From: Mycobacterium senriense
Lineage (GTDB): Bacteria; Actinomycetota; Actinomycetes; Mycobacteriales; Mycobacteriaceae
NCBI RefSeq assembly: GCF_019668465.1
Contig: NZ_AP024828.1
Coordinates: 4,898,001-4,962,000 of the forward strand
Length of the DNA: 64,000 nt
Direction: 5' to 3'
How positions within the stretch are numbered: the first letter of the stretch is position 1; the number at the start of each line of letters is the position of its first letter. Below are positions 44,203-64,000 of this stretch, in pieces. Below the pieces are notes generated by a model. It did no database searches and had not been told where the DNA came from. It saw only the letters and a program-made list of their open reading frames with translations. The position numbers and the translations under genes are program-made.

Positions 44203-45984
44203 GTGGCGCACCTACTTGGAGCTGAGGCCGTACACCTCGAATATCCGACTCAGGTGGTCTTCGAATCGATCACGCTCGGGGTCAACGACGGAGCGCGCAT
44301 CGGCATCGTCGGGCGAAACGGCGACGGCAAATCCAGCCTGCTGCGGCTGCTGACCGGCCAGCAGCGGCCCGACTCCGGCCGGGTCACCCGGCGCAGCGGG
44401 CTGCGGGTCGGCGCGCTGAGCCAGGCCGACACCCTGGACCCCGAGCACAGCGTGGGCTACACACTGGTCGGCGAGGCGGCCGAGCACCAGTGGGCCGGTG
44501 ACGCCCGGGTCCGCGATGTGGTCACCGGGCTGGTCTCCGACATCGCCTGGGAGGCAACGGTTGCCACGCTGTCCGGCGGCCAGCGCCGCCGGGTGCAGCT
44601 GGCCAGGTTGCTGGTGGGCGAGTGGGACGTCATCGCACTCGACGAGCCCACCAACCATCTGGACATCGAGGGCATCACCTGGCTGGCAAGCCATCTGCGC
44701 CAACGCTGGGCGCGCAACACCGGCGGGCTGCTGCTGGTGACCCACGACCGCTGGTTTCTCGACGACGTCGCCACCACGACGTGGGAGGTGCACGACGGGA
44801 TCGTCGAACCGTTCGACGGCGGGTACGCGGCCTACGTCCTGCAACGCGTCGAACGGGACCGGATGGCCGCCGTCGCCGAGGCCAAGCGACAGAACCTGAT
44901 GCGTAAGGAGTTGGCGTGGCTGCGCCGCGGGGCGCCGGCGCGGACGTCCAAGCCCAAGTTCCGGATCGAGGCGGCCAACCAGCTGATCGCCGACGTGCCG
45001 CCGCTGCGCAACACCGTCGAACTGGCCAAGCTGGCCACCGCCCGGCTGGGCAAGGACGTGGTCGACCTGCTCGACGTGTCGATCTCGTTCGACGGCCGCC
45101 CGGTGCTGCGGGACATCGAGTGGCGGATCGCCCCCGGCGAGCGGACCGGCATTGTCGGGGCCAACGGCGCCGGCAAGTCGACGCTGCTGGGGCTTATCGA
45201 CGGCACCATCACCCCGGACGCGGGACGGGTCAAGCGCGGCAAGACCGTGCGGCTCGCGGTTCTCGACCAGCAGGGCGACGCCCTGGCCGCAGTCGGCGGC
45301 GACCGGATCGCCGATGTGCTGGGCGGGCTGCAGGGCGGCTATCAGGTCGACGGCCGCGAGGTCACCCCGGCGCAGCTGCTGGAGCGGCTCGGGTTCGGCC
45401 GCGGCCAACTGTCCGGCCGCGTCCAGGATCTCTCCGGCGGTGAGCGGCGGCGGCTGCAGCTGATGCTCACGCTGTTGTCCGAGCCCAACGTGTTGCTGCT
45501 CGACGAGCCGACCAACGACGTCGACACCGACACCCTGGCCGCGATGGAGGACCTGCTGGACTCGTGGGCGGGCACGCTGATTGTCGTCTCGCACGACCGC
45601 TACCTGTTGGAGCGGGTCACCGATCAGCAGTACGCGGTGCTCGACGGCCGGTTGCGGCATCTGCCTGGCGGTGTCGACGAGTACCTGCGGCTGGCCGAGC
45701 AGCGGACCGGCGAGGCGACCGCCGCATCGCCGCGGCCGGCCGAGCCCGCTCCCCAAGCGATGTCGGGCGCGCAACGCCGCGCCGCGGAGAAAGAGGTGGC
45801 CTCGGTCGATCGCCAGCTCGCGCGGCTGGCGGACCGGATCGAGGACAAGCACAACGAACTCGCCGCGCACGACCAATCCGACCATGTCGGCATCGCCCGG
45901 CTAACCCAGGAATTGCGTGCGCTCGAAAACGAGGTGGCCGCGACGGAGAGTCGCTGGCTGGAGCTCTCCGAGCAGCTCGAATGA
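44203..45984 (+). CDS. ABC-F family ATPase, 593 aa
   Basis: Two tandem ATPase domains without membrane parts: GRNGDGKSS, LSGGQRRRVQLA and DEPTNHLD in the first; GANGAGKST, LSGGERRRLQLM and DEPTNDVD in the second, with a basic linker and a C-terminal coiled coil (residues ~520-593). ABC-F proteins act on the ribosome, some giving resistance to macrolides or related drugs; others are translation factors. In Mtb the homologue is annotated as two pieces, Rv1667c and Rv1668c; here it is one intact gene. GTG start at 44203. Converges with pks11. Confidence 0.88.
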   Translation: MAHLLGAEAVHLEYPTQVVFESITLGVNDGARIGIVGRNGDGKSSLLRLLTGQQRPDSGRVTRRSGLRVGALSQADTLDPEHSVGYTLVGEAAEHQWAGDARVRDVVTGLVSDIAWEATVATLSGGQRRRVQLARLLVGEWDVIALDEPTNHLDIEGITWLASHLRQRWARNTGGLLLVTHDRWFLDDVATTTWEVHDGIVEPFDGGYAAYVLQRVERDRMAAVAEAKRQNLMRKELAWLRRGAPARTSKPKFRIEAANQLIADVPPLRNTVELAKLATARLGKDVVDLLDVSISFDGRPVLRDIEWRIAPGERTGIVGANGAGKSTLLGLIDGTITPDAGRVKRGKTVRLAVLDQQGDALAAVGGDRIADVLGGLQGGYQVDGREVTPAQLLERLGFGRGQLSGRVQDLSGGERRRLQLMLTLLSEPNVLLLDEPTNDVDTDTLAAMEDLLDSWAGTLIVVSHDRYLLERVTDQQYAVLDGRLRHLPGGVDEYLRLAEQRTGEATAASPRPAEPAPQAMSGAQRRAAEKEVASVDRQLARLADRIEDKHNELAAHDQSDHVGIARLTQELRALENEVAATESRWLELSEQLE

Positions 45985-46019
45985 GGCTGGCGCGGCGGGT
46001 TCGCGACGCGGTCAGGCGC

Positions 46020-47081
46020 TCAGTGCCAGCGCAGCAACACCAGTTCGGAGCCGAAACCGGGACCCATGGCGAGCATCAGCCCGGGGCTGCCGCTGGGCGG
46101 CGGTTTGGCGATGGTGTCGCGCAGGATGTGCAGCACCGACGCCGACGACAGGTTGGCGACCTCCTCGAGCGAGCGCCAGGTCAGTTCCTGCGCCTCCGGC
46201 GGCAGTTCGAGGCTGGTGGCAATCGTGTTGATGACCTTGGGGCCGCCGGGGTGCGTGACCCAGGCGCCGATGTCGTCCTTGGTCAGCCGGTGCGCCGCGA
46301 GGAAGCTGTTCACGTCGCCGGCGAGGTAGCGGTCGATCACCTTCGGCAGGTCCGGGGACATCGCCAGCTGCATGCCGTCCGAGCCGATGTTCCAGCCCAT
46401 GATGTGCAGCGATTCGGGGTACTGCCGGCTGCGCGAATCCAGGATGTCGGGTCCGGCGGAATTCAGCTGCTCGGCGCGACGGTCGCCGACGGCGACGACG
46501 GCCGCGGCGCCGTCGCCGAACATCGCCGTGCCGACCAGTCCGGACACGGTCGGCCTGACCGTCGGGAAGGTGAGCGAACACAGCTCGACCGACACCAGGG
46601 CGGCGACGCCGTCCGGCGCACCCCGCAGGTAATCGTGCAGGCGGCCCACGCCGCCGGCCCCGGCCGCGCAGCCCAGCCCGAACATCGGGATCCGGCGCAC
46701 GTCCGGGCGCAGGCCCAGGCGGCCCACCAGCCGGGCGTCGAGGGACGGCACCGCGATGCCGGTGACGGTCGTGGTGGTGATCATGTCGATGTCTTGCGGT
46801 TGCAGCCCGGCCTCGTCGAGCGCGCCCAACAGCGCGTCGCAGCCCAGCTCCAGGGCCTTGTCGATGAAGATCTCGTTGGTCGCGCTGAAGTCGGTGAGCT
46901 CGTGGTAGCGCTCGAGGGGTAGCACGAAGTGGCGGCTGTTGACCTTGGCGGCGGCGTGCAGCCGCCGGACGATCTCTTCGTGCTCCTTCAACGTCGGCAA
47001 CTCGACGAGCCGGTCGGTGATTTCGCTTTGGCTGTACCGATGGGGCGGCAACGCGCCGAAAACACCCGCGATGACGCTCAT
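46020..47081 (-). CDS. pks11: Type III polyketide synthase (Pks11-like), 353 aa
   Basis: A chalcone-synthase-fold enzyme that extends an acyl-CoA or acyl-ACP starter with malonyl-CoA to form pyrones or resorcinols. The catalytic triad is visible: Cys138 (FGLGCAAG), His277 (VTHPGGPK) and Asn310 (NLSSAS). The 353-residue length equals the annotated Mtb Pks11 as I remember it. It has its own upstream promoter-like sequence (47133-47161) and a 157-bp gap from pks9, so it may be regulated apart from the type I genes. The C-terminal third is very similar at the DNA level to the Pks10-like gene at the window end. Confidence 0.92.
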
Positions 47082-47238: not shown

Positions 47239-50200
47239 TCATTCGGAGTCCTCGTCGTCCGCCGAGCTGAGCGCCATCGCGATCAACGCATCGGGGCTCA
47301 ACGCGTCGATCTCGTCGGCACCGGCATTTGCCTCGGAGGCGGGCGTTTCCGGCGTGCCGGCGAGCAATAAAAGTTTTTCGAGCAATCCCGTTCTTCGAAG
47401 CTCGCGCACCGGAATTTTGCGCAGTGCCGTCCAGATCTTTTCCTCGTCCGATTCCGCCGGCTCGGCATGGAGTAGTTGCCGCCGAAGATGATCGGCCAGC
47501 GCGGCCGGCGTCGGGTAATCGAAGATCAGCGTTCGCGACAGTGCCAGGCCGGTATGGCTGGTGAGTCGGTTGCGCAGTTCGACCCCGATCATCGAGTCAA
47601 AGCCGAGGTCGCCGAAAGCGCGGTCGGGGTCGATGGCGTGGCCGTCCGGATGGCCCGAAACCGCCGCCGCGTGTTCGCAGACCAGCTCGACCAGCACACG
47701 GTGCTGGTCGTCGGGCGCCAGTCCGAGCAGCCGGTGCGCCAGGTCGGGCGCTCGAGAAGCCGTCGCGGGCGCAGCGCCCGTCGCACCGGCGCCTTCGGCG
47801 CCCAGCCAAAACCTTTGCCGCGCAAAGCCATACGTCGGCAACTCGACGCGTCGCGCGTGCAGGCCGGCGAACACGCCCGCCCAGTTCAACTCGAGGCCGC
47901 GGGTGAACAATTGGCCGGCCGCGCCCAGCAGCGATTCCGCCTCCGGGCGATCCTTGGCCATGCTGGGCACGCAGACGGCCCGCTCGGCGCTCAGCGATTG
48001 GTCCACCGCCGCCGTCAACGCCGCACCGGGACCCAGTTCCACGAAGATCGCGGCGCCTGCCGCCTCCGCGGCGCGCACGCCCTCGAAGAATCGCACCGGC
48101 CGGCCCACATGCTCCGCCCAGTACTGCGGCGACCCGTAGCCGGCGCCCGCCGGCCGACCGGTCACGTTGGACACCAACCCGATTCGCGGCTCTCCCACCT
48201 CGATGCCGGCCACCGCCGCGGAAAAGTCCGCCACCATCGGCCGCATCAACGGCGAATGAAACGCATGCGACACCGCCAGCCGGTGCACGCGCCGGCCTTC
48301 CCGGGCCAGCCGATCCGCCAGCGCGTCGACCGGTGCCTGTGCGCCCGAAAGCACCACCGCGTCCGGGCCGTTGACCGCCGCGATGCTCACCCCGTCGGTC
48401 AGCAACCCGGCCACCTCGGCCTCGGCCGCCCCGACGGCCACCATCACCCCGCCGGCCGGCAGCCCGGCCATCAACCGTCCCCGCGCCGCCACCATGAGCG
48501 ACGCGTCCGCGAGCGTCAGCACCCCGGCCACGCACGCCGCGGTGATCTCGCCGACCGAGTGCCCCAACACCACATCCGGTGTCACACCGAAGGACTGCCA
48601 CAGCGCCGTCAGCGCGATGCCGATCACGAACAAGGCGGGCTGGGCAAATTCGGTGTTACGCAACAACTCCGGGTCGGCGCCCCACATCACCTCACGCAGC
48701 GGCGCCCGCAGATGAGCGTCGACGGCCGCGGCTGCCTCGTCGAAGGCGCGGGTGAACGCGTCGAACCGGCCATAAAGTTGCCGCCCCATCCCCAACCATT
48801 GCGATCCCTGACCCGGGAACACAAAGGCCGCCTTACCCGACGACCCGAACGACCTAGCCCGGCCCGCCGCCACGCCCGGCCCGGACTCCCCCGCTGCAAG
48901 GGCCGCCAAACCCGTTGCCAGCGCGGCACGATCGCCGGCCACCAGCACGGCGCGGTGCTCGAAGACCGTCCGGGTGCTGACCAACGACCAGGCGATGTCG
49001 ACCGGGTTCACATCGGTCCGGTCGGCCAGATAGGCCCACAACCGCCGCGCCTGGTTGGCCAGCGCCTGTTCGGAGCGTCCCGACAGCACCCACGGCAGTA
49101 CCTCGTCCGCGTCCGCGGGCGAATCCGCGGGCCACATCTCCGGCTGGGCATGCGGCTGCTCGAACTGCTCGAGGATGAGGTGCGCGTTGGTGCCGCCCAT
49201 GCCGAACGAGGACACCCCGGCCCGGCGCGGGCGATCCACCGGCGGCCACGGTGTCAGCGCGGTGTTGACCCGCAGCCCAAGGTGATTGAGCTCGGTCCCG
49301 GGGCCGGCGTAGTTGAGGCTGGGTGGGATCGCGGCGTGTTCGATCGCCAGTACGGCCTTGAGCAGGCCCGCGATCCCCGCGGCGCCGCCGGTGTGGCCGA
49401 TATTGGTCTTGACCGATCCAAGCCGCACCGGGTCGTGGGCGCGCTCGGCGAAGATCTCCCCCAGGGCTTGGACTTCGATCGCGTCGCCGACCTTGGTCCC
49501 GGTGCCGTGCGCCTCGATGTAGTCGATGTCGCCGCCGTGCAGACCGGCATCGGCGAGCGCGCGCCGGATCACGTCCGCTTCGCCGCGCGCCGACGGCACG
49601 GTCTGGGCGGGCGCGCTGCGCCCCGCGTTGCCGATGGCGCCGCCGCGAATGACCGCGCGGATGCGGTCACCGTCGTCCAGCGCCGACGGCAAGGGCTTCA
49701 GCAGCACCAGTCCACCGCCTTCACCGCGCACGTAACCGTCGGCGCGCCGATCGAACGCACACGTGTGACCCGAGACCGAGACCGCGCCGAATTCGCGTTC
49801 CAGCATTCCGATTTCGTCGGCCAGGTTGAGGTGGACCCCGCCCGCGATGGCCAGCGCGGATTGGCCGGTGGACACGCTTTGGCAGCCGAGGTGCACCGCC
49901 ACCAGAGAAGACGACTGCCCGGAATCGACGGTCATGCTGGGCCCGTGCAGTCCGAAGGCGTACGAGATGCGGTTGGCGATCATCGCCCGGCTGATCCCGG
50001 TGAAGGTGTGGTGGTCCAGGTTGTCGGCGACGTCGCGCAGCGTCAGCGCGGCGTAGTCGTCCGTCATCGCCCCGAGGAAGACCGAAACCGGTTCTCCCCG
50101 AAGTGTTTCCGGTACCAGGAAGGCGTCTTCGAGCAACTCCCAGGTCAGCTCCAGGGCGATGCGTTGCCGCGGATCCATCGCGCTCGCCTCTCGCGGCGAC

Positions 50201-50352
50201 AGGTTGAAGAAGTCGGCGTCGAATTCGCCGGCGTCCCCGGTGAACCGGGTGGCCTCACGCCCGTCGCGGATCAGGCGCCAGAACGCGCCGGGTCCGGCCG
50301 CGGCCGGGAACCTGCATGCCAGCCCGATGATCGCTACGTCTGTCGAGGGCAA
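47239..50352 (-). CDS. pks9: Type I PKS, KSQ-AT-ACP loading-type module (Pks9-like), 1037 aa
   Basis: Domains: KS (residues ~4-425), AT (~510-820), ACP (~885-955, phosphopantetheine Ser920 in LGFDSM). The KS active site reads VDSGQSSSLVA, so Gln146 stands where the catalytic Cys belongs, while both KS His motifs (EAHGTGT, NIGHTGG) remain: a KSQ decarboxylase as in modular loading modules. The AT has Ser599 (GHSVGE) and HAFH, the malonyl-CoA pattern. There is no N-terminal docking helix; the C-terminus has a docking-like tail (GLLEKLLLLAG ... IDALSPDALIAMAL). No KR, DH, ER or TE. Start is a TTG two bases after the pks8/17 stop. Confidence 0.9.
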   Translation of the reverse strand: MPSTDVAIIGLACRFPAAAGPGAFWRLIRDGREATRFTGDAGEFDADFFNLSPREASAMDPRQRIALELTWELLEDAFLVPETLRGEPVSVFLGAMTDDYAALTLRDVADNLDHHTFTGISRAMIANRISYAFGLHGPSMTVDSGQSSSLVAVHLGCQSVSTGQSALAIAGGVHLNLADEIGMLEREFGAVSVSGHTCAFDRRADGYVRGEGGGLVLLKPLPSALDDGDRIRAVIRGGAIGNAGRSAPAQTVPSARGEADVIRRALADAGLHGGDIDYIEAHGTGTKVGDAIEVQALGEIFAERAHDPVRLGSVKTNIGHTGGAAGIAGLLKAVLAIEHAAIPPSLNYAGPGTELNHLGLRVNTALTPWPPVDRPRRAGVSSFGMGGTNAHLILEQFEQPHAQPEMWPADSPADADEVLPWVLSGRSEQALANQARRLWAYLADRTDVNPVDIAWSLVSTRTVFEHRAVLVAGDRAALATGLAALAAGESGPGVAAGRARSFGSSGKAAFVFPGQGSQWLGMGRQLYGRFDAFTRAFDEAAAAVDAHLRAPLREVMWGADPELLRNTEFAQPALFVIGIALTALWQSFGVTPDVVLGHSVGEITAACVAGVLTLADASLMVAARGRLMAGLPAGGVMVAVGAAEAEVAGLLTDGVSIAAVNGPDAVVLSGAQAPVDALADRLAREGRRVHRLAVSHAFHSPLMRPMVADFSAAVAGIEVGEPRIGLVSNVTGRPAGAGYGSPQYWAEHVGRPVRFFEGVRAAEAAGAAIFVELGPGAALTAAVDQSLSAERAVCVPSMAKDRPEAESLLGAAGQLFTRGLELNWAGVFAGLHARRVELPTYGFARQRFWLGAEGAGATGAAPATASRAPDLAHRLLGLAPDDQHRVLVELVCEHAAAVSGHPDGHAIDPDRAFGDLGFDSMIGVELRNRLTSHTGLALSRTLIFDYPTPAALADHLRRQLLHAEPAESDEEKIWTALRKIPVRELRRTGLLEKLLLLAGTPETPASEANAGADEIDALSPDALIAMALSSADDEDSE

Positions 50353-50354
50353 GG

Positions 50355-53300
50355 TCAGGGGCCGACTTCGTCGTCGAGAATCGCGAACAGCTGGCTCTCG
50401 GTGGCGGTGGCGATGTCGTCGTCGAACGCGTCCTCGTGGTGTTCGAGCAGCGGGGCCGGTGCCGGGCCGGTCGCCGTGGTCACCAGGCCTTCGAGCCGGC
50501 TGATGAGCTGCGCCTTGTCGCCGGGGCTCAGGTCGGGCTGGTTGAGCAGCGCTTGCAGCTCCCGGGCGATGTCGTTGAAGCGGGCCATCCGATCGGGCGG
50601 CGTGGCGGCCGTGGCCGTCGCGCCGGGGGCGCTGCCGGCCAGCTGGGTGCCGAGTTGTTCGGCGAGCGCGCCCGGGGTGGGGTGGTCGAAGATCAGCGTG
50701 GGCGAAAGGGTAAGGCCGGTAGCGATTTTCAGCCGGTTGCGCAGTTCGACGGCGGTCAGCGAATCGAACCCGAGGTCGCCGAACGCATCGTCGGCGTTGA
50801 CGTCCGCGGAGCTGTGGCCCAGTACCGTGGCCGCGTTGCTGCAGACCAATTCCACCAATTCGCTGTGCCGCTGCTCTGCGGTCATGCCCTCCAGCCGCGC
50901 CCGCAGCCCCGTCAGGGACACCATGTCGGTGTGCTCCAGGACCCGGCGCGCCGGGCGGGTGGCCAACTGGCTCAGCAGCGGCGGCAGCGTGTCGCTGTGG
51001 TGCGCCAGCGCTGCCCGGTCCAGCCGGGTGCCCACCACCATCGGGTGTTCGGTCAGCAACGCGGCATCCAACAGCTCCAGCGCCTGCCGAGTGGACAATG
51101 CGGTCAGCCCGGCCCTGCTCATCCTGGCCTTGTCACGATCGCCGAGGTGCCGGGTCATCGTCGAGGTCTCTTCCCACATCCCCCAGGCCACCGAGAGTCC
51201 CGGCAGCCCGCGAGCGCGGCGATGCACCGCCAGCGCGTCGAGGAAGCTGTTGGCCGCCGCGTAGTTCCCCTGGCCCGGCGCACCCACGATGCCCGCCATC
51301 GACGAAAACGCCACGAAGGCCGACAGATTCAGCCCTTGGGTCAGCTCGTGCAGATGCCACGCCCCGTCGACCTTGGCCCGCAACACCGTGTCGATGCGCG
51401 CGGGTGTCAGTGACGCGATGACCGCGTCGTCGAGCACGCCCGCCGCGTGGAACACCGAGCGCAACGGATACTGCTCGGGCACCTGCGCCAACAACGCCGC
51501 GACGGCGTCCCGGTCGCCGACATCGCAGGCCGCCACGGACACCGATGCACCCTTTTCGCGCAATTCGGCGGCCAGCTCGGCCATGCCGTCGGCGCGTTCA
51601 CCGGTGCGACTGACCAGCAGCACGTGCCGCACCCGGTGCCGCTCGACAAGATGCCGCGCCACCGCCGAACCCGCCATGCCGGTGCCGCCGGTGATCAGCG
51701 CGGTGCCGCCGGCCAGGCCGGCCGGCCCGTCCGGCATGGTGAGCACGACCTTGCCGATGTGGCGGGCCTGGCTGACAAACCGGTACGCGTCGCCGGCGCT
51801 GCGCGCGTCGAATGCCTTGACCGGCAACGGCGTCAGGACCCCGCCCGCGAAAAGCTCCATCAGCTCCGCCAACATCTCGGCGATGCGGTCAGGGCCGGCC
51901 TCCATGAGATCGAACGCGCGATACGTCACCCCGGGATGGGCCGCGCCGACGTCATCCGGGTCACGCAGATCGGTCTTGCCCATTTCAATGAAGCGGCCGC
52001 CGGCCCCCAGCAGCCGCAGCGACGCGTCGTTGAACTCCCCCGCCAGGGAATTGAGCACCACGTCCACGCCGCCGGCAAATTTCCGCTCGAACTCCAGGGT
52101 GCGGGAATCCGCGATGTGTGCCTCGTCGAATCCCATGGCGCGCAGGGTGTCCCACTTGCCGCGGCTGGCGGTCGCGAACACCTCCGCGCCCCAATGCCGG
52201 GCCAGCTGCACCGCGGCCATGCCCACACCGCCGGTGGCGGCGTGCACCAGTACCCGCTGCCCGGCGCGCAGACCGGCCAGCACCGACAGCCCGTAATAGG
52301 CCGTCAAGAACACCACCGGCACGGCCGCGGCCTGCGCCATCGACCAGCCCCGCGGCACCCGGGTCACCAACCGGCGATCGACGGCGGCCTCCGAGCCGGC
52401 GAGCCCGAAGATCCCCATCACCGAATCCCCGACGGCGACATCCGTCACGCCGGCGCCGAGCTCGGTGACGATTCCCGCGCCCTCGGCGCCCAGTTGCGCG
52501 GCACCGGGGTACATGCCCAGCGCCACCAGCACATCGCGGAAGTTCACCCCGGCGGCGGCGACGGTCACCCGCACCTGACCGGCCTCCAGTGCCGCCGGCG
52601 GGTACTCCTGCACCGCCAGGTCCTCAAGCGTCCCGGCATCGCCGGCGGCCAGCCGCCACACCGACGGCGGATCGGGCAGCCGCAGCAGCGGTCGCTGGTC
52701 GGCCGGCTTCAGCCGGGCGCTGTAGGCCACACCGTCGCGCACCACCAATTGCGGCTCGCCGCAACCGATCACCGTTGCGGCATCGAGCGTTCCGTCGGTA
52801 TCGACCAACACCACGCGGCCGGGGTGCTCGGCCTGCGCCGAACGTGTCAACCCCCACACCGCGGCACCGGCCAGGTCCGCGACGCCCTCGCCCGCCAGCC
52901 CCACCGCCCCGCGGGTCAGCACCGCCAGGACCCCGGTCGCCTCACCCGTCAGCCAGGACTGCAACACACCCAGCGCCTCATGCGTCGCCCGGTAGACGGA
53001 GGTCACCGCACCCGAGTCGGCGGGCGGTGACTCCCAGACGGTGACGTTCGCGCCAACGTCGTTGCCGGGCAGAGAGACCGGTGACCACACCACGTCGAGC
53101 AGCTCACCGCTACCGGAGCGGGCCGCCACGGCCGCGGTCAGCTGATCGGCCGACACGGCGCGTGTCACCAGCTCGCGCACCGACAACACCGGCAGCCCGG
53201 AGGAGTCGGCCAGCTCGACCGATACGGCGCCGGCACCGACCGGCGCCAGCCTGACCCGGACCCGAGAAGCGCCGGCCGCGTTCAGACTCACTCCCTGCCA

Positions 53301-56300
53301 CGAGAACGGTAAGACGGTCTCGGTCCGCTCGCCGGCCACACCCAGCGCATGCAGCGCCGCATCCAGGACAACCGGATGGATGCCGAACCCGCCGGTCGAC
53401 ACCCCGGCCTGTTGCGGGAGCTCCACCTCGGCGAACGTCTCAGTCCCCCTTCGCCATACGGCCCGCAGCCCACGAAAGGCCGGCCCGTACCCGTAGCCGC
53501 GGACCGCCAGGTCGTCGTACGCGCCGGTCACGTCCACCACCTCCGCACCCAGCGGCGGCCACACCGACAGGTCGGCGGCCGGTGCGGGCGCAGCGTCGCT
53601 CAACACGCCCTCGGCGTGCAACACCCAATCCGATTGTGCGGCACGCGAATACACCGCCACCGAGCGTGTTCCCGCGTCATCGGCTGCGGCCACCACGACC
53701 TGAACGTGCACCACCCCGGTCGCCGGTACCACCAGCGGCGCCGACAGCGTCAACTCCTCGATCACCGAGCAGCCGACCTCGTCGCCGGCCCGCAATGCCA
53801 GCTCGACGAAACCGGCTCCCGGAAACAGCACCGTGCCGGCCACCGTGTGGTCGGCCAGCCATGGTTGTGCGGCAACCGAAAGCCGGCCCGTCAACACCAC
53901 ACCGCCGGAATCGGGCCGGTCCACCACCGCGCCCAGCAATGCGTGCTCGGCCTCGGCCAGACCCAGGCTGGCGATGTTGGCCGAACCCACCGAATCGCTG
54001 GACAGCCAAAACCGCCGTCGCACAAAGGCATACGTGGGCAGGTCGACACGCCGCGCGGCGGGGTCGGCGAACGCCGCGGCCCACCGCACGTCGGCACCGG
54101 CCGTGAACAGCTGACCCGCCGCCCGCAGCAGCGAGTCCACTTCGGGGCGGCCCTTGACCATGGTCACCACCGAGGTCGGCCGGTCGGTCGTCAGGGATTG
54201 CTCCACCGCGGACGTCAGCGCCGCACCCGGACCCACCTCCAGGAACACATCGGCACCCAACGATTCGGCGAGCCGAACGCCGTCGACGAATCGCACCGGC
54301 TTGCGCACATGGTCGACCCAGTACCCGACGGACCCATAGTCGGGGCCGGCCAGTTGCCCGGTCAGGTTGGACACCAAAGCGATTCGCGGCTCGGCGGCCG
54401 ACACGTCGGAGGCCACCGCCGCGAACTCCCCCATCATCGGCTCCATCAACGGCGAGTGAAACGCGTGCGAGACGGCCAGCCGGTGCGCCCTCGCGCCGCC
54501 CGTGGCCAGCCGGTCCGCGACCGCCGCCACCGCGGCCTGCTCACCGGAAAGCACCAGCGATCGCGGGCCGTTGACCGCCGCGATGCTCACGGCACCGTTC
54601 AGCAATCCAGCCACCTCGGCTTCGGTTGCGCTCACCGCGACCATCGCCCCGCCGGCGGGCAGCCCGGCCATCAGCCGGCCGCGCGCCGCCACCAGCCGCG
54701 CCGCGTCGGGCAGTGACACCGCCCCGGCCACGCACGCGGCGGCGATCTCGCCCACCGAATGACCGATCACCACATCCGGTGTCACACCGAAGGATTGCCA
54801 CAGCGCGGCCAACGCGACCTCTACGACGAACAACGCCGGCTGGGCGAACTCGGTGCTCTGCAACAACTCCGGGTCCGAGCCCCACATCACCTCGCGCAAC
54901 GGCAGCCGCGCGTGAGCGTCCACCGCCGCGACCGCCTCGTCGAAGGCGCGCGCGAACACGGGGAAACATTCATACAGCTCGGCACCCATCCCGAGGGACT
55001 GCGAGCCCTGGCCGGGAAAAACGAACACCCGCTTGCCCGCCGACCGGGTCCGGCCCACCAGCACGCCCGGGTCGGGCCGCCCGGACGCCAGTCCCGCCAA
55101 CCCCGCCGTCAGGGCCTCGCGGTCGGCGCCCACCAGCACCGCGCGGTGCTCGAAGGCCGCGCGGGTAGTCGCCAGCGACCAGCCCACGTCCACCGTTCGC
55201 ACACCCGCGTCGGCACTCAGCCGGTCCAGCAGCCGTTGAGCCTGGCCGGCCAACGCCTCGGGCGACCGGGCCGAAATCACCCACGGGATCACCGGATTCG
55301 ACGGTCCCGCAACCGGTTCGGCTTCGTCGTCGAGTTGCGCGGGGGCCTGCTCGACGATCACGTGCGCGTTGGTGCCGCTGATCCCGAACGACGAGACGCC
55401 CGCCCGCCGTATCCCGCCGTGATCCGGCCACGGCTGCGGCTCGGTCAACAGCGACACCGCGCCGGCCGTCCAATCCACGTGCGGCGACGGGATATCCACG
55501 TGCAGCGTCTTGGGCATCACCCCGTGCCGGATCGCCTGCACCATCTTGATCACCCCGGCCACCCCCGCCGCGGCCGAGGTATGCCCGATGTTGGATTTGA
55601 TCGACCCCAACCACAGCGGCCGGTCCGCGGGACGATCCTGCCCATAGGTCGCCAGCAGCGCCTGGGCCTCGATCGGGTCCCCGAGCACCGTCCCCGTCCC
55701 GTGGCCCTCGACCACATCCACGTCCGCGGCCGTCAGCCCGGCGTTCGCCAGCGCAGCCCGGATCACCCGCTGCTGCGACGGCCCATTGGGCGCGGTCAAC
55801 CCGTTCGATACGCCGTCCTGATTCACCGCCGTGCCGCGCAGCACCGCCAGCACGGGATGCCCCAGGCGCCGCGCATCGACCAGCCGCTCCAGCACCAGGA
55901 CGCCTGCGCCCTCCGACCACGAAGTCCCGTCCGCCGCGCCGGCGTACACCTTGCAGCGACCGTCGGGGGCCAGCGCGCGCTGGCGGCTGAACTCGACGAA
56001 GGCCGCGGGGGTGGCCATCACGGTCACCCCACCGGCCAGGGCCAGATCGCATTCTCCCGACCGCAGCGACTGCGCGGCCAGATGCATGGAGACCAGCGAC
56101 GACGAACACGCGGTATCCACCGACACCGCGGGGCCTTCCAGGCCCAACACGTAGGACACCCGGCCCGAGGTCACGCTCAGCGTCGAGCCGGTGAGCCCGT
56201 AGCCCTCCAGTTCGCCTTTCACCTCGCCGCCATAGCCGGCGTGGATCACCCCGGCGAACACGCCGGTCGCCGAGCCGCGCAGCGCGAAGGGGTCGATGCC

Positions 56301-56714
56301 GGCCCGCTCCAACGCTTCCCAGCAGATCTCCAGCATCATCCGTTGCTGGGGGTCCATGGCCAGCGCCTCGCTGGGTCCGATGCCGAAGAATCCGGCGTCG
56401 AAGTCGCCGGCGTCCTGCAGGAAGCTCCCCTGCCGGGTGTACATCTTTCCCTTGCTGTCGGGGTCGGGGTCGTACAACCCGTCGACGTCCCAGCCGCGGT
56501 CGGCCGGGAAGTCCGACACCGTGTCGCGGCCTTCGATCACGAGCTGCCACAGGTCTTCCGGCGATTCGACGCCACCGGCATAGCGACACGCCATGCCCAC
56601 CACGGCGACCGGCTCGGAGAGTTGACCCTCCAGTTCCGCGACACGCCGCCGGGTCCGCCTGAGATCCGCCGTGAGGCGTTTCAGGTAGTCGACGTGTTGC
56701 GAGGTGCCCGGCAT
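50355..56714 (-). CDS. pks8: Type I PKS, full module KS-AT-DH-ER-KR-ACP (Pks8 and Pks17 in one protein), 2119 aa
   Basis: Order: N-terminal docking coiled coil ([22 protein letters not shown]), KS (Cys203), AT (Ser653, HAFH: malonyl), DH ([11 protein letters not shown] and LDAALHALG), ER ([18 protein letters not shown]), KR ([23 protein letters not shown]), ACP (Ser1985), C-terminal tail [15 protein letters not shown]. All reductive sites look intact, so it should give a saturated two-carbon extension. In Mtb H37Rv the same information is split into pks8 and pks17. The start is the ATG at 56714, which has AAGGAGC upstream; open sequence further up is shadow. It lies 19 bp after pks7. No thioesterase. 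Confidence 0.93.
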
Positions 56715-56733
56715 CGTTGCTCCTTGCGGGGTG

Positions 56734-59700
56734 TCAGCGGCCGAGTTCTTCATCGAGGATCGCAAAGAGTTGGCTTTCGGTGGCGGCGTCGAGGTCATCG
56801 TCGAGGTGTTCGGCATCGGAAGGATCGCCCGGCGGGAGCGCGGCGAGCAGGTTGTGAATGCGGGCCCGCAGCAGGGATTTGTCGTCGGCATTCCAGGTGG
56901 GCGCCGCGAGCAGCGCCTGCAGTTCGCGGGTGATGTCGTTGAAGCGACCCATCAGGTTCGGCTGATCGTCTGCACCGCCGGTGCCGGCCAGTTGGGTGTC
57001 CAGGTGCGCGGCCAGCACGGTGGGTGTCGGATAGTCGAAGATCAGCGTCGGCGAAAGGGTAAGGCCCGTAGCATTTTTGAGCCGGTTACGCAGTTCGACG
57101 GCGGTCAGCGAATCGAACCCGAGCTCCTGGAACGCGCGGCCGGCGTCGATGTCCGCCGGATTGGCCACGCCCAGCACCAACGCCGCGTTGCCGCACACCA
57201 GGTCGACCAGTTCGCGCTGTCGCGCCTCCGGGGTCAGCCCGTGCAGGCGGGCCGACAGCCCGGTCGTCGACGCAGCGATGTCCGTGTCGACGATGACGCG
57301 CCGGGTCGGGCCGGCCACGAGTTCGCGCAGCAGTCCAGGCAGCGCGGCAATGTTGTCAGACAGGGCGGCCCGGTCCACGCGGGCGGCCACCAGCACCGAA
57401 GCGTCCACCAGCATCGCCGCGTCGAACGCCGCCAGCGCCGCAGCGGTGGACAGCGGCGCCAGCCCGATCCTGCTCATCCGGGCCTTGTCGCGATCCCCGA
57501 GGTGCGCCGTCATCGCCGAGGCCTGCTCCCACAGGCCCCACGCCAGCGACAGGCCGGGCAGTCCGTGGGCGCGCCGATAGGCGGCCAGCCCGTCGAGGAA
57601 ACTGTTGGCCGCCGCGTAGTTGGCCTGACCCGGGGTTCCCACAATCCCGGCCATCGACGAAAACACCACGAACGCCGAGAGATCCAGGTGCCGGGTGAGC
57701 TCGTGCAGATTCCAGGCCCCGTCGACCTTGGCGCGCAGGACCGCGTCCACCCGATCCGGGGTCAGCGACGAGATCAGTCCGTCGTCGAGAATGCCCGCGG
57801 CGTGCACGATTCCGCGCAGCGGATACTGCGCCGGTATCTGGGCCAGCATCGCCGAGGCCGAGTCGGGGTCGGCGACATCACAGGCCACCACCGACACCTG
57901 CGCGCCGGCCCCCTGAAGCCCGGCCACCAGTTCGGATACCCCGGCGGCCTGGGCGCCGGTCCGGCTGACCAGCACCACGTGCGCCACCCGGTAACGGTCG
58001 ACGAGGTGGCGGGCCAGCGCCGAACCGGCCATCCCGGTGCCACCGGTGATCACCACGCTGGCACCCGCCAGTCCCCCGCCGCAGCCGCTGAGCACCTCGC
58101 CGGGTCCCGACGGGACGGTCAGCGCGACCTTGCCGATGTGGCGGGCCTGGCTGACGTACCGATAGGCCGCCGACGCGCAGCGGACATCAAACGTCCTCAG
58201 CGGCAACGGTTTCACGACGCCGTCGGCCAACAGTCCCACGATCTCGGCCAGCATGGCCGCGGTACGGTCCGGGCCGGCCTCCATCAGATCGAACGCCCGA
58301 TACACCGCACCCCGATACTCGTCGGCGATGACGTGCGGATCGCGCACATCGGTCTTGCCCATCTCGATGAATCGTCCGCCGGGCGCCAACAGCCGCAACG
58401 ACGCGTCGGTGAACTCACCGGCCAGCGAGTTGAGCACGACGTCGAACCCGGCGCCGCAGGTCGCTATGAATTTCGCCTCGAACTCCGTCGTGCGCGAATC
58501 GCCGATGTGGTCGTCGTCGAATCCCATCGCGCGCAAGGTGTCCCACTTACCGCGGCTGGCGGTGACGAACACCTCGGCGCCCCAGTGCCGGGCCAGCTGA
58601 ACCGCGGCCATGCCCACGCCGCCGGTGGCGGTGTGCACCAAGACGCGCTCGCCGGCGCGCAGCCCGCCCAGCACCGACAGCCCGTACAGCGCCGTCAGGA
58701 ACACCACCGGCACACCCGCGGCCGCCACCGACGACAAGCCCGCCGGCACCGGTGTCACCACGCGCTGATCCACCACGGCCTCGGAACCGACGACCCCGAG
58801 CAACCCCATCACCGCGTCGCCGACGGCCAGCCCGGTCACGTCGGGTCCCACCTCGACGACCACGCCGGAGCCCTCGGCACCGAGCTGCCCGCCGCCGGGA
58901 TACATCCCCAGGGCCACCAGGACATCGCGGAAGTTGACGCCGACCGCGGCCACCGCCACCCGCACCTGCCCGCCGGTCAATTCGGTTGGCGGGCACGGAC
59001 TTACGACCAGGTCCTGCAACGTGCCCTCACCGCCGGCATCCAACCGCCAGCCGGCGGAAGGCAAGCCGACGGCGGAGCCCATGTGCACCGGCCGCAGCCG
59101 CGCCGCGTACGCCACGCCCTGGCGCACCACCACTTGCGGCTCGCCGCAGTCGATCACCGCGCCGGCGGCGACGGAGCCGTCGGAGTCGATCAGCACCATC
59201 CGGCCCGGGTACTCGGCCTGCGCCGAGCGCACCAGGCCCCACACCGCCGCGCCGGCCAGGTCCGAAACGTCTTCGCCGGCAAGGGCGACGGCCCCGCGGG
59301 TCTGCACGGCCAGCACGCCGGCGTCTTCGTCACGAAGCCACGCTTGCAGCGTCGCCAGAATCTCGGCGGCCGCGGCGTGCACCGCCTTCACCACGTCGCC
59401 GCCATGGTCGCCCAGCTCCCACACCGTGGCCTGGGCGCCGCCCGCGCCGGCGCCCAGTGCGATCGGCGACCACGTCACGTCGAGCAATCCCTCGGCGCGG
59501 GAGCGCTGCGCGGGAGCCGCCGTCAACTGCTCGGCCGAGACCGGGCGCATGGCCAACGACCGCACCGAGAGCACCGGAAGTCCCGCTCCGTCAGCCAGTT
59601 CCACCGACACCGACCCTGCGCCGGCCGGCGCGATCCGCACCCGCGCCCGCGAGGCACCCGAGGCGTGCAGCGACACCCCCTGCCACGAGAACGGCAACAC

Positions 59701-62700
59701 GGTCTGGTCCTGGTCGGCGGCGACGCCGATCGCGTGCAGCGCCGCATCCAGGAGCACGGGATGCACTCCGAAACCGCCGTCCTGAGTTCCGGCGTCATCG
59801 GGCACGACGACCTCGGCGAAGAGCTCGTCCCCGCGCTGCCACATGGCCCGCAGTCCCCGGAAGGCGCTGCCGTAGTCGTAGCCCCGCTGCGCCAGCCGGA
59901 CGTAGGCGTCAGTGACGTCCACCGCGCTCGCCCCGGCGGGCGGCCAGATCGAGAAGTCGGTGGCCGGTGTCACCGTGCCCGGCCGCAACAGCCCCTCGGC
60001 ATGCAGCACCCACTCCGAATCCGGTTCGTCGCCGGCGGAATACACCGACAAGCGCCGCAGCCCCGACTCGTCGGGCGCGCCGACCACCAGCTGCACCTGC
60101 ACGCCCCCGGCCGGGGGCAGCAGCAACGGAGCCGACAAGGTCAGCTCGTCGAGCACCGCGCAGCCGACCTCGTCGCCGGCGCGGATGGCCAGCTCGACGA
60201 ACCCGGCCCCGGGAAACAGCACCGTCTCGCCCACCGCGTGATCGGCCAGCCACGGGTGGGCCGCCGTCGACAACCTGCCCGCCAAAACCACACCGCCGGA
60301 ATCGGGCCGCGGCACCACCGCACCGAGCAACCCGTGCTCGGCGGCGGCCACGCCCAGGGCGGCGACGTCTTGCGACCCCGTCGACCCGCCTGGAAGCCAA
60401 AAGTGTTGCCGGACAAACCCGTACGTCGGCAGGTCGACGGCCCGGCCACCAAGGCCGGCCATCGCGGCGCGCCAGTCGACGGCCACACCCGCCACGTGGG
60501 CCTGGGCGACCGAGAGCCAGAAGCGGTCCACGCCGCCGTCCTCACGGCCCAGCGACGGGATGACGCACGCCCGCTCGCTGTCGGGCATCGTTTCCTCGAT
60601 GGCAGTCATCAGCACGGGATGCGGGCTGGATTCGATGAACGTCTGATAGCCCGCATCGCACGCGCTGCGCACCGCCCGCTCGAATTGCACGGTCTGCCGG
60701 ATGCTTTGGAACCAGTAGTCGGCGTTCAGCCCCGCGGTGTCCATCAGCTCACCGGTGACCGTGGAGAAGAAGGCGGCCGCCGACGGCCGGGGCGCGAGGC
60801 CGTGCAGCGCCTCGGCGAGGGACTCGCGAATCGCGTCCACCTGTGCCGAATGCGATGCGTAGTCGACGTCGATCTTGCGGGCCCGGATGTTGTCGGCGTC
60901 GCACCGCTGCATCAGTTCGGCCAGGGCGTCCACCTCGCCGGAGACCACCACCGCGGCAACACCATTGACGGTCGCGATGTTCAGCCGCTCACCCCACCCG
61001 GCGATCAGCTGCTCGGCGCGCGGCAGACTGCACGCCAGTGAGACCATGCCGCCCCGACCCGACAACTGCACCAGCAGCCGGCTGCGCAGGGCGACCACGC
61101 GGGCGGCGTCTTCCAGCGACAGCGCCCCCGCCACATAGGCCGCCGCGATCTCGCCCTGCGAATGGCCGATCACCGCATCGGGCAGCACGCCCACCGAGCG
61201 CCACAGTTCGGCCAGCGACACCATCACCGCCCACAGCGTCGGCTGCACCACGTCCACCCGGTCCAATCCGGGTGCGCCCGGGACGCCGCGGATCACGTCG
61301 ATCAGCGACCAGTCGACGTATTCGGCGAGCGCCTTGTCGCAGCGCCGCAGGTGCTCGGCGAATACCCTTGTGCTGTCCAGCAATTGGGCGCCCATGCCAA
61401 CCCATTGCGAGCCCTGGCCGGGAAACACGAACACCGTCTTGCCCACCGGCCGCGCACGCCCGACGACCAAACCTGCGCTCTGCTCGCCGGCCGCCAGCGC
61501 CGTCAGCCCGCGCAGCAGCTGCGCGCCGTCGGCGCCCACGATCACGGCGCGGTGCTCGAAGCGCGCCCGCGTCGCGATCAGCGACCAGCCTACGTCCAGC
61601 ACCCGCACGCCGGGATCGGCCTTGACCCGGGCCAGCAGCCGCGCCGCCTGGTTCGCCAGCGCCTCACCCGAGCGGGCCGAGAGCACCCACGGCACCACCA
61701 CGTCATCGCCTGGGCGGGTGGCGGTTTCGGGCTCCGGGGCGTATTGCTCCACGATGACGTGCGCGTTGGTGCCGCTGATGCCGAAGGACGAGACTCCCGC
61801 GCGGCGCGGCCGGTCCACCGCCGGCCAGGGCCGCTGCTCGGTCAGCAGCGACACCGCCCCGGCGGTCCAATCCACATGCGGCGTCGGCTCATCCACATGC
61901 AACGTCTTGGGCATCACCCCGTGGCGGATCGCCTGCACCATCTTGATCACTCCGCCGGCCCCCGCGGCGGCCGAGGTATGGCCCATGTTCGATTTGATCG
62001 AACCCAGCCACAGCGGCTGATCCGCCGGCCGGTCCTGCCCGTAGGTCGCCAGAACCGCTTGCGCCTCAATGGGATCCCCGAGCATGGTGCCCGTGCCGTG
62101 ACCCTCGACCAGATCGACGTCGGCCGTGCCCAGGCGCGCGTTGGCCAGCGCCGCCCGGATCACCCGTTGCTGCGACGGCCCGTTGGGCGTCGCCAGGCCG
62201 TTGGAGGCGCCGTCCTGATTCACCGCGGACCCGCGTACCACCGCGAGCACCGGATGACCATGCCGCCGGGCATCGGCCAGCCGCTCCAGCACCAGCACTC
62301 CGACGCCTTCGGAGAACCCGGTGCCGTCGGCGGCACCCGCGTACGCCTTGCACCGGCCATCGGCGGCCAGCGCCCGCTGCCGGCTGAACTCGATGAACAT
62401 CGCCGGTGTCGCCATCACGGTCACGCCGCCCGCCAGCGCCAGATCGCACTCGCCGGAACGCAACGACTGCGCCGCCAGGTGCAGCGCCACCAGCGACGAC
62501 GAACACGCCGTGTCCACCGAGACGGCCGGGCCCTCGAACCCCAGCGAATAGGCCACCCGGCCCGAGGCGACGCTGAGCGTCGAACCGCGCAGGCCGTATC
62601 GCTCCAGGTGGCCCGGCACGCGTCCCTGACCCCCGTAGGAGCCGTGGAATATCCCGGCGAACACACCGGTCGCCGAGCCGCGCAGGGTGGCGGGGTCAAT

Positions 62701-63120
62701 CCCGGCCCGCTCCAACGCCTCCCAGGACACCTCGAGCAGCAGGCGTTGTTGCGGGTCCATGGCCAGCGCCTCGCTGGGGGCGATCCCGAAGAACGCGGCA
62801 TCGAAATCGCCGACATCCGAGAGAAACCCGCCGCAGCGGGCGTACGACTTGCCCGCGGCGTCGGGATCCGCGTCGAACAGACCGGTCAGGTTCCAGCCGC
62901 GGTCCGCGGGGAACTCCGAGACCACATCGCGCCCCTCAACCACCATCTGCCACAAAGCCTCTGGTGAATTCACGCCGCCCGGGTACCGGCAGGCCATGCC
63001 CACCACCGCCACCGGTTCGGTCGCGGCGGCCAGGTACTGGCGGTTCTCGCGCTTGAGCCGCTCGTTGTCTTTCAGCGACTGGCGAAGAGCCTTGATCAGC
63101 TCTTCGGTGTTGCCGTTCAT
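56734..63120 (-). CDS. pks7: Type I PKS, full module KS-AT-DH-ER-KR-ACP (Pks7-like), 2128 aa
   Basis: N-terminal docking helix of a second type ([20 protein letters not shown]), KS (Cys206, DTACSSS), AT (Ser654 in GHSQGE; YASH, the methylmalonyl-CoA pattern), DH ([20 protein letters not shown]), ER ([18 protein letters not shown]), KR ([23 protein letters not shown]), ACP (Ser2004) and tail [15 protein letters not shown]. It should add a fully reduced, methyl-branched unit. Length is within a few residues of Mtb Pks7 as remembered. Large parts are near-identical to pks8/17, suggesting duplication or gene conversion. A 141-bp gap separates it from the Pks10-like gene. Confidence 0.93.
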
Positions 63121-63261: not shown

Positions 63262-64000
63262 TCAGTACCAACGCAGCAACACCAGTTCGGAACAGAATCC
63301 TGGACCCATCGCGAGCATCAGACCGGGGCTTCCGCTCGGCGGCGGCTTGGCCATGGTGTCGCGCAGCACGTGCAGCACCGACGCCGACGACAGGTTGCCG
63401 ATCTCGCCGAGTGAACGCCAAGTGAGTTCGAGCGCCTCGGGCGGCAGGCTGAGCGCCGCGGTGATGGCCTCGATGACCTTGGGGCCGCCGGGGTGGCTCA
63501 CGAAAGCACCGATGTCTGCCGTCGTCAGGCCGTGCGCGCCCAGGAACTCTGTGACATCCGCTTCGATGTACTGCTCGACGACGGCGGCGACGTCCTTGGA
63601 CAGCACCAGCTCGAAGCCGGTGGCGCCGACGTCGAAGCCCATGGTGCGCAGCGAATCGGGGTACAGGTGGCTGCGCGAGTCGAGGATGGTCGGTCCGCCG
63701 GCGGCCAGTTGTTCGGCGCGCCGCTCGCCGACGGACACCACCGCCGCGGCCCCGTCGGCGAACAGGGCGCTGCCGACCATGCCGGCCAGCGACGGCTTGT
63801 ATCCGGGATAGGTCAACGAGCACAGCTCGACGGAGAGCAGGGCGGCCACGGCGTCCGGTGCGCCGCGCAGGTAGTCGTGCACGCGGGCCATCCCCGCTGC
63901 GCCGGCCACGCAGCCAAGGCCGAACATCGGCACCCGTCGCACGTCGTCGCGAAGGCCGAGCTGCGCGGCGATCCTGGCGTCCACGGACGGCACGGTGAGA
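63262..64000 (-). CDS. pks10: Type III polyketide synthase (Pks10-like), 5' part outside window
   Basis: About 246 C-terminal residues are visible; the frame is open to the window edge, so ~110 N-terminal residues are missing. The triad is present: Cys in FGLGCVAG, His in VSHPGGPK and Asn in GNLSSAS. It is strongly similar to Pks11 at 46020-47081, yet in the same orientation ~16 kb away. Position upstream of pks7 matches Mtb pks10. Starter and product unknown; alkylpyrones or alkylresorcinols are the family products. Confidence 0.9.
   Translation of the reverse strand, partial: LTVPSVDARIAAQLGLRDDVRRVPMFGLGCVAGAAGMARVHDYLRGAPDAVAALLSVELCSLTYPGYKPSLAGMVGSALFADGAAAVVSVGERRAEQLAAGGPTILDSRSHLYPDSLRTMGFDVGATGFELVLSKDVAAVVEQYIEADVTEFLGAHGLTTADIGAFVSHPGGPKVIEAITAALSLPPEALELTWRSLGEIGNLSSASVLHVLRDTMAKPPPSGSPGLMLAMGPGFCSELVLLRWY

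Follow-up and report, generated by a model that had tools for sequence, protein, structure and literature searches.

Pks9 as a probable KSQ loading module encoded last in the pks7-pks8-pks9 cluster of Mycobacterium senriense

We analyzed a 64,000-nucleotide stretch of the Mycobacterium senriense genome (contig NZ_AP024828.1, positions 4,898,001 to 4,962,000 of the forward strand; hereafter the window), in which three type I polyketide synthase (PKS) genes lie between two type III PKS genes on the minus strand. The final type I gene of this run, pks9, follows pks7 and pks8 and encodes a protein with ketosynthase (KS), acyltransferase (AT), and acyl carrier protein (ACP) domains. Sequence comparison suggests that Pks9 is probably a discrete loading module of the KSQ kind for the cluster's type I synthases, with Gln at the KS nucleophile position in place of the usual Cys (KSC), and that it would feed Pks7, which in turn would feed Pks8. 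KSQ loading modules are well known and the cluster has been published (PMC5916927); what is new here is the working order predicted from docking domains. Gene order would be misleading here, as the predicted entry point of the starter is the product of the first type I gene, Pks7, and the starter enzyme itself is the product of the third.

Results

The pks9-like gene (47239..50352; minus strand, as are all window features below unless stated otherwise) encodes a KSQ-AT-ACP protein of 1037 residues from a TTG start located 2 bases past the pks8 stop. The codon at 49917-49915 (49915..49917) reads CAG and places Gln146 at the KS nucleophile position, within MTVDSGQSSSLVAVHL / VDSGQSSSLVAVH, versus Cys at the equivalent site of both Pks7 and Pks8, within VDTACSSSL. 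The two KS histidines are retained, H282 in the HGTGT motif (49495..49509), which also holds two threonines, and H320 in the NIGH motif (49393..49404). A catalytic role of the KS His and Thr residues is described in PMC12267109, and KSQ chemistry is known from work on GfsA, as cited in PMC12267109 and PMC12843615. The AT carries the nucleophile motif GHSVG (S599; extended, GHSVGE) at 48550..48564 and a malonyl-type HAFH motif at 48256..48267, and the ACP carries the phosphopantetheine site GFDSM (S920) at 47590..47604. In a Pfam search, Pks9 contained KS, AT, and ACP domains alone, the KS beginning at about residue 5, with neither a reductive domain nor the PF08990 docking helix that is present in Pks7 and Pks8. 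The initial annotation of the window had proposed the Gln, both histidines, the malonyl motif, the missing docking helix and reductive domains, and the terminal position among the type I genes, and each of these was borne out. Together with the KSQ ancestry described below, Pks9 combines several traits of a KSQ loading module: the Gln, the KS His and Thr residues, an extender-type AT, an intact ACP, and the absence of reductive domains and of an N-terminal docking helix.

As a rule, HAFH marks ATs that select malonyl, and YASH marks those that select methylmalonyl. On these motifs, the ATs of Pks9 and Pks8 are predicted to use malonyl and that of Pks7 methylmalonyl; HAFHS is described as a malonyl signature in PMC4035055.

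The Gln was found at the site in all 120 Pks9 homologues listed, which are the top 120 of 7,959 matches with E values up to 1e-50 and apparently include the Pks9 of the window itself (P0006). Among loci L001-L049, a Pks9-like open reading frame (ORF) was present in 48, and all 48 carried Gln. In the genus-wide loci L076-L161, which include the window as first locus and share species with the previous set, 86 had a Pks9-like ORF; two of these end before the site, and Gln occupied it in 84/84 of the others. When 165 loci were pooled, 140 ORFs best matched Pks9, and the sole other residue was a Cys in a distant Pyxidicoccus KS, with five gaps. The AT motif over 141 rows (window included) was HAFH in 130, YASH in 2, LAAH in 1, and a gap or nearly so in 8. 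The initial annotation had named a majority of Cys among homologues as one case that would speak against it; the homologues did not bear this out, the Gln being invariant.

Some loci in these sets depart from the common arrangement. In Mycobacterium lepraemurium (L040, 10332-13853), the head, KSC, and AT of Pks8 are fused in frame to a Pks9-type ACP and tail, and the KSQ domain of Pks9 has been lost through that fusion. In Mycobacterium genavense (L031, 4115-6823), a Pks8-like KS-AT carries a docking head of the Pks7 type within a fragmented cluster, an arrangement that looks like cluster decay. Two mycobacterial KSQ-AT-ACP relatives (L156 and L157, the second found again in L262) have a methylmalonyl-type YASH AT, for which a propionyl starter would be expected.

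To place the KS domains, a tree was computed by a quick method from 113 rows, 64 with Gln and 49 with Cys, with near copies removed, the nucleophile column masked, and support given by the Shimodaira-Hasegawa-like approximate likelihood ratio test (SH-aLRT) only; four Pks9 loci (L032, L034, L153, and L156) are present twice. Every Gln row fell on one side of a branch with an SH-aLRT of 99, and the 46 Pks9 rows formed a clade at support 100 among 18 KSQ rows from other actinomycetes; a single Cys/Gln change is enough for this distribution. The nonmycobacterial KSQ rows were mostly chosen as the best matches when the Pks9 KS was searched against 345 genomes of the class, and their counts are uninformative on frequency. 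In the 23 nonmycobacterial loci taken from the best KS matches (L173-L195), Gln was present in 23/23, with the KS beginning 16 to 214 residues into the ORF. Other KSQ rows are told apart from KSC rows by 17 positions, and the window Pks9 agrees with the KSQ rows at 12 of them. The nesting of the Pks9 KS in the KSQ clade, with the nucleophile masked, argues that this KS descends from KSQ domains and that its Gln is of old lineage.

The AT is closer to that of the neighbor Pks8. The Pks9 AT (47890-48830) shares 69% identity with the Pks8 AT and 36% with the Pks7 AT, versus 42% and 41% identity of the Pks9 KS to the Pks8 and Pks7 KS, making Pks9 a mosaic with respect to Pks8. This identity led us to consider gene conversion between the Pks9 and Pks8 ATs, of which no sign was seen: in the 14/49 loci where both ATs could be cut out, mean same-locus identity was 0.702 versus 0.696 across loci, and higher in 8/14. 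A separate observation from the tree concerns a KS(C)-AT-ACP-KS(C)-AT-ACP protein (L265, 5884-13158, plus strand, the same gene in L162; also L163); its first KS has Cys but is placed beside the KSQ clade at support 80, and it is perhaps a loading unit of another sort.

Structural comparisons were also made. The best sequence matches of Pks9 in the PDB were GfsA KSQ-AT constructs, at 748.5, 729.3, and 726.0 bits over KS and AT. A predicted model of the Pks9 KS alone had a mean predicted local distance difference test score (pLDDT) of 91.1 and a predicted template modeling score (pTM) of 0.92, folding despite an N-terminal deletion. In a Foldseek search with this model, ranks 1 to 7 were GfsA and PikA1 KSQ chains, and VIA-align scores were 62.5 for GfsA, 61.4 for PikA1, and 59.6 for the best KSC. 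These fold matches agree with a KSQ assignment and lend it weak support, short of proof.

We next consider the docking domains, which suggest a partner for Pks9. Tail denotes a C-terminal and head an N-terminal docking element. The Pks9 tail (EIDALSPDALIAMAL..., 47242..47313) is of class A, as is its predicted partner, the Pks7 N-terminal helix (63031..63105); the Pks7 tail (56737..56802) is of class B, as is its own predicted partner, the Pks8 N-terminal helix (56619..56693), and the Pks8 tail (50358..50423) is likewise of class B. From the matched classes, the predicted docking is Pks9 tail to Pks7 head and Pks7 tail to Pks8 head, and the working order would be Pks9, Pks7, Pks8, versus the gene order pks7, pks8, pks9.

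The class assignment was compared with adjacent same-strand actinomycete PKS genes having a readable tail and head, scored on mycobacterial motifs alone; the motifs were chosen after the pairs had been read by eye, and the scoring was not blind. Such pairs came from 32/46 loci (27/40 in L196-L235, picked from the list of best Pks9 KS matches in the class, and 5/6 in L050-L062), the other 14 yielding no readable pair. Among 47 distinct pairs, 16 joined a Pks9-like tail to a Pks7-like head and 31 a Pks7/8-like tail to a Pks8-like head, with no crossed pair; the sole tie was a misread head (L201) in the 31-pair group. With near-copies collapsed, 42 pairs remained (15, 26, and one tie; p 1.6e-11). 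Under the same score, 25 nonactinobacterial pairs showed no pairing (6, 7, 6, and 6), as expected if other docking classes are used there. Classes A and B probably correspond to the actinobacterial H1-T1 and H2-T2 docking classes of PMC1994986, where the C-terminal docking domains are named heads.

The pattern extends to related loci. The Pks9 tail fits class A in 46/49 Pks9 ORFs of L001-L049, and 17/20 further Pks7 regions have a class A head; none was found by pattern in L245, L249, and L254, where the Pks7 matches nonetheless begin at residue 1 or 5. Among the matches listed for 297 genomes of the genus, 81 genomes had both Pks9 and the N-terminal part of Pks7, 2 had Pks9 without Pks7, 2 had Pks7 without Pks9, and 212 had neither; these counts include six genomes with a partial Pks9 (two without the KS site) and are uncorrected for kinship among genomes.

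A second PKS locus of a mycobacterium (genome G064; L261, 9848-15460, minus strand) encodes a KSQ-AT(HAFH)-ACP unit fused to KS(C)-AT(YASH). Its first KS is 66% identical to the Pks9 KS. The partial second AT shares 67% identity with that of Pks7 and 41% with that of Pks8, and the second KS is about equally close to Pks7 (76%), Pks8 (75%), and the first KS of the bimodular PKS considered below (77%). The frames past the fused KS-AT are apparently broken. The earlier proposal that Pks9 starts the chain draws support, at the level of sequence, from the pairing of its tail class with the Pks7 head and from this fused unit.

In the mechanism that we propose, the malonyl-type AT of Pks9 would load its own ACP with malonyl, and the Gln146 KS would decarboxylate this to acetyl-ACP, with no condensation. 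The initial annotation had allowed a starter from either malonyl or methylmalonyl; the HAFH motif favors malonyl to acetyl and makes methylmalonyl less likely. The class A tail would then pass the acetyl group to the class A helix of Pks7, which may carry out a single methylmalonyl extension with full reduction, before class B docking transfers the chain to Pks8, a putative malonyl-adding, fully reducing module. The chain could perhaps be released onto the flanking type III PKSs, because a Pfam search of Pks7, Pks8, and Pks9 found a thioesterase family in none of them. One methyl branch would follow from the lone methylmalonyl unit that Pks7 is predicted to add. A study cited by title in PMC7261415 and PMC3032701 reportedly ties pks8 plus pks17 to monomethyl branched unsaturated fatty acids. 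One sentence in PMC3032701 also links Pks8 to such acids, and PMC6469627 speaks of methyl-branched fatty acids in connection with Pks8. Full reduction by Pks7 and Pks8 alone leaves the unsaturation of the reported fatty acids unexplained. In Mycobacterium marinum, two type III enzymes make methylated polyketides from acyl-coenzyme A starters, as described by Parvez and colleagues (PMC5916927).

Of the type I PKSs compared from this genome, only Pks8 has a head of class B, and its own tail is also of class B, so that self-docking is possible. This raises a self-priming relay, which we regard as rather doubtful: Pks9 would supply acetyl, Pks7 would add one methylmalonyl to give a 2-methylbutyryl (anteiso) end, copies of Pks8 would dock to one another iteratively and lengthen the chain by malonyl, and the long acyl chain would pass directly to the type III PKSs. 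The relay fits the monomethyl branched unsaturated fatty acids reported for pks8 and pks17 and, if true, would let a polyketide pathway make anteiso chains with a single methyl branch, with no need for an isoleucine-derived starter.

The position of the type III PKS genes on both sides of the operon and the missing thioesterase, which make a handover to type III enzymes plausible, also speak for the view that the KS decarboxylates while acetyl-ACP is not the starter, for example as a side activity or with the neighboring type III PKSs as direct recipients from Pks9. We consider this quite improbable, since the conserved class A tail of Pks9 would then serve no clear purpose and type III PKSs of this kind usually accept longer acyl starters.

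The remaining features of the window frame the cluster. The pks8-like gene (50355..56891; pks8 and pks17 in a single frame, a 2178-residue ORF) encodes KS(C)-AT(HAFH)-dehydratase (DH)-enoylreductase (ER)-ketoreductase (KR)-ACP, and its true start is likely 56714, judging from the Met directly ahead of the docking helix. The pks7-like gene (56734..63120; 2128 residues) encodes KS(C)-AT(YASH)-DH-ER-KR-ACP. One type III PKS gene lies downstream of pks9, at the pks11 position (46020..47081); the visible portion of the second, upstream of pks7, spans 63262..63993, and the gene is complete in L164 (1262-2323; 353 residues). The genes upstream of it look like argH and argG, names given from the N-terminal sequences alone. 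At the other end, an ATPase with two ABC_tran stretches (44203..45984, plus strand) is convergent with the PKS cluster. In the tubercle bacillus, the genes are named pks10, pks7, pks8, pks17, pks9, and pks11 (PMC6600245). Among the matches listed, proteins recorded for Mycobacterium colombiense and M. vulneris are the closest named kin, with protein identities of about 91 to 92%.

Discussion

Several observations weigh against Pks9 as the loader for Pks7. The two near relatives with a YASH AT indicate that starter choice varies within the family, and the window Pks9 is without the KSQ-typical residue at 5 of the 17 separating positions. An elongating 6-deoxyerythronolide B synthase (DEBS) chain matched Pks9 at 723.7 bits, barely behind GfsA at 726.0 to 748.5; two other KSQ entries had VIA-align scores of 59.3 and 59.1, below the best KSC; and the GfsA chain 8IN9, among the tied VIA-align best, has Cys at the site. 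The Pks9 KS is also short of about 27 GfsA residues near the N terminus (KS residues 25 to 48). The stretch has a median length of 23 residues among Pks9 rows, as against 41 for the remaining KSQ rows and 52 for KSC rows, and 35/46 Pks9 rows share the identical length of 23 residues. This short N-terminal deletion is the sole point in favor of a lone Cys-to-Gln substitution, or a dead KS, within an ordinary elongating module. Such an explanation is extremely improbable and appears already contradicted by the homologue alignments, in which the Gln is invariant, by the retained KS histidines and ACP serine, by the position of the KS within the KSQ clade, and by a KS model that folds (mean pLDDT 91) despite the deletion.

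A further point concerns the partner. Elsewhere in the genome, a bimodular 4174-residue PKS, which we take to be Pks12-like, has a class A-like head and also a class A tail. Pks9 could be a KSQ loader whose main role is to prime a different synthase in trans, for example this one, whose head has a score of 52.0 when compared with foreign A heads and of 35.4 when compared with B heads; a class match by itself permits such crosstalk. We judge this improbable. The head scores below that of Pks7 (52.0 versus 74.4), the bimodular PKS can pair with itself through its own class A tail, and pks9 is the direct neighbor of pks8 within the operon and is found in the same genomes as Pks7. For the mycoketide PKS, a modularly iterative mechanism was derived from an analysis of its docking residues (PMC2661021). 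The classes themselves have limits: according to PMC1994986, a docking class match is necessary and not sufficient, with true positives of 0.97 and false positives of 0.52, and the published subclass code for docking domains is hardly above chance. Finally, Pks7 and Pks8 have been placed in the PKS family required for phthiocerol dimycocerosate (PDIM), a different product (PMC3032701).

On balance, a Pks9 loader acting ahead of Pks7 and Pks8 remains the reading that we prefer. Among the papers listed in an open-licence library, PMC6600245 and PMC6469627 included, none was found to give Pks9 a loading or KSQ role. Among the matches listed, the pks7-pks8-pks9 cluster occurs in about 80 of the 297 genomes of the genus. 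For the product of the cluster, Pks9 as starter together with the docking order makes a concrete prediction: an acetyl start, one methyl branch via Pks7, straight extension via Pks8, and finishing by type III enzymes. The role and partner of Pks9 can now be tested stepwise with purified proteins.

The closest described counterpart of the locus is the 2x type III pks cluster of M. marinum (MMAR_2470 to MMAR_2474; PMC5916927), which like the window has three type I genes, two flanking type III genes, and an ATP-binding cassette (ABC) gene; the names pks7, pks8, and pks9 are absent from the main text of that paper. A cytochrome P450 gene beside the downstream type III PKS is reported there as conserved with the cluster, whereas the window locus has no adjoining P450 gene: none of the genome's 76 P450 matches lies inside the window, and a motif search of the stretch from the type III PKS to the ABC gene (44203-47081) found none. 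P450 is likewise absent between those genes in 10/11 of loci L001-L011, whereas the motif search gave a P450-like ORF in 23/49 of L001-L049. With the PKS and ABC genes present and the P450 gene missing, the window locus corresponds to the orthologous PKS core without the P450.

At the protein level, the GfsA KSQ-AT didomain of Streptomyces graminofaciens (PDB 7VEE and 7VEF) shares GQSSSLVAVH, HGTGT, the second His, and the HAFH AT with Pks9; it provided the top sequence matches and was among the best by Foldseek and VIA-align. Unlike GfsA, Pks9 is short of about 27 KS N-terminal residues, is a separate KS-AT-ACP protein, and lies in a cluster with type III PKSs. PikA1 and the N-terminal KSQ loaders of L173-L195 resemble Pks9 in having Gln at the nucleophile, in being the first KS of the protein, and in belonging to the same clade. 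In 18/23 of L173-L195, the open frame exceeds 1,600 residues, the loader being fused to further modules, whereas Pks9 is free-standing and is predicted to dock to Pks7. Discrete loading proteins are also known from polyene synthases, such as NysA and AmphA, which like Pks9 are separate KS-AT-ACP proteins, with Ser at the KS nucleophile position (KSS) versus Gln in Pks9. Nystatin and amphotericin B are described as starting from such KSS-AT-ACP loading (PMC12843615).
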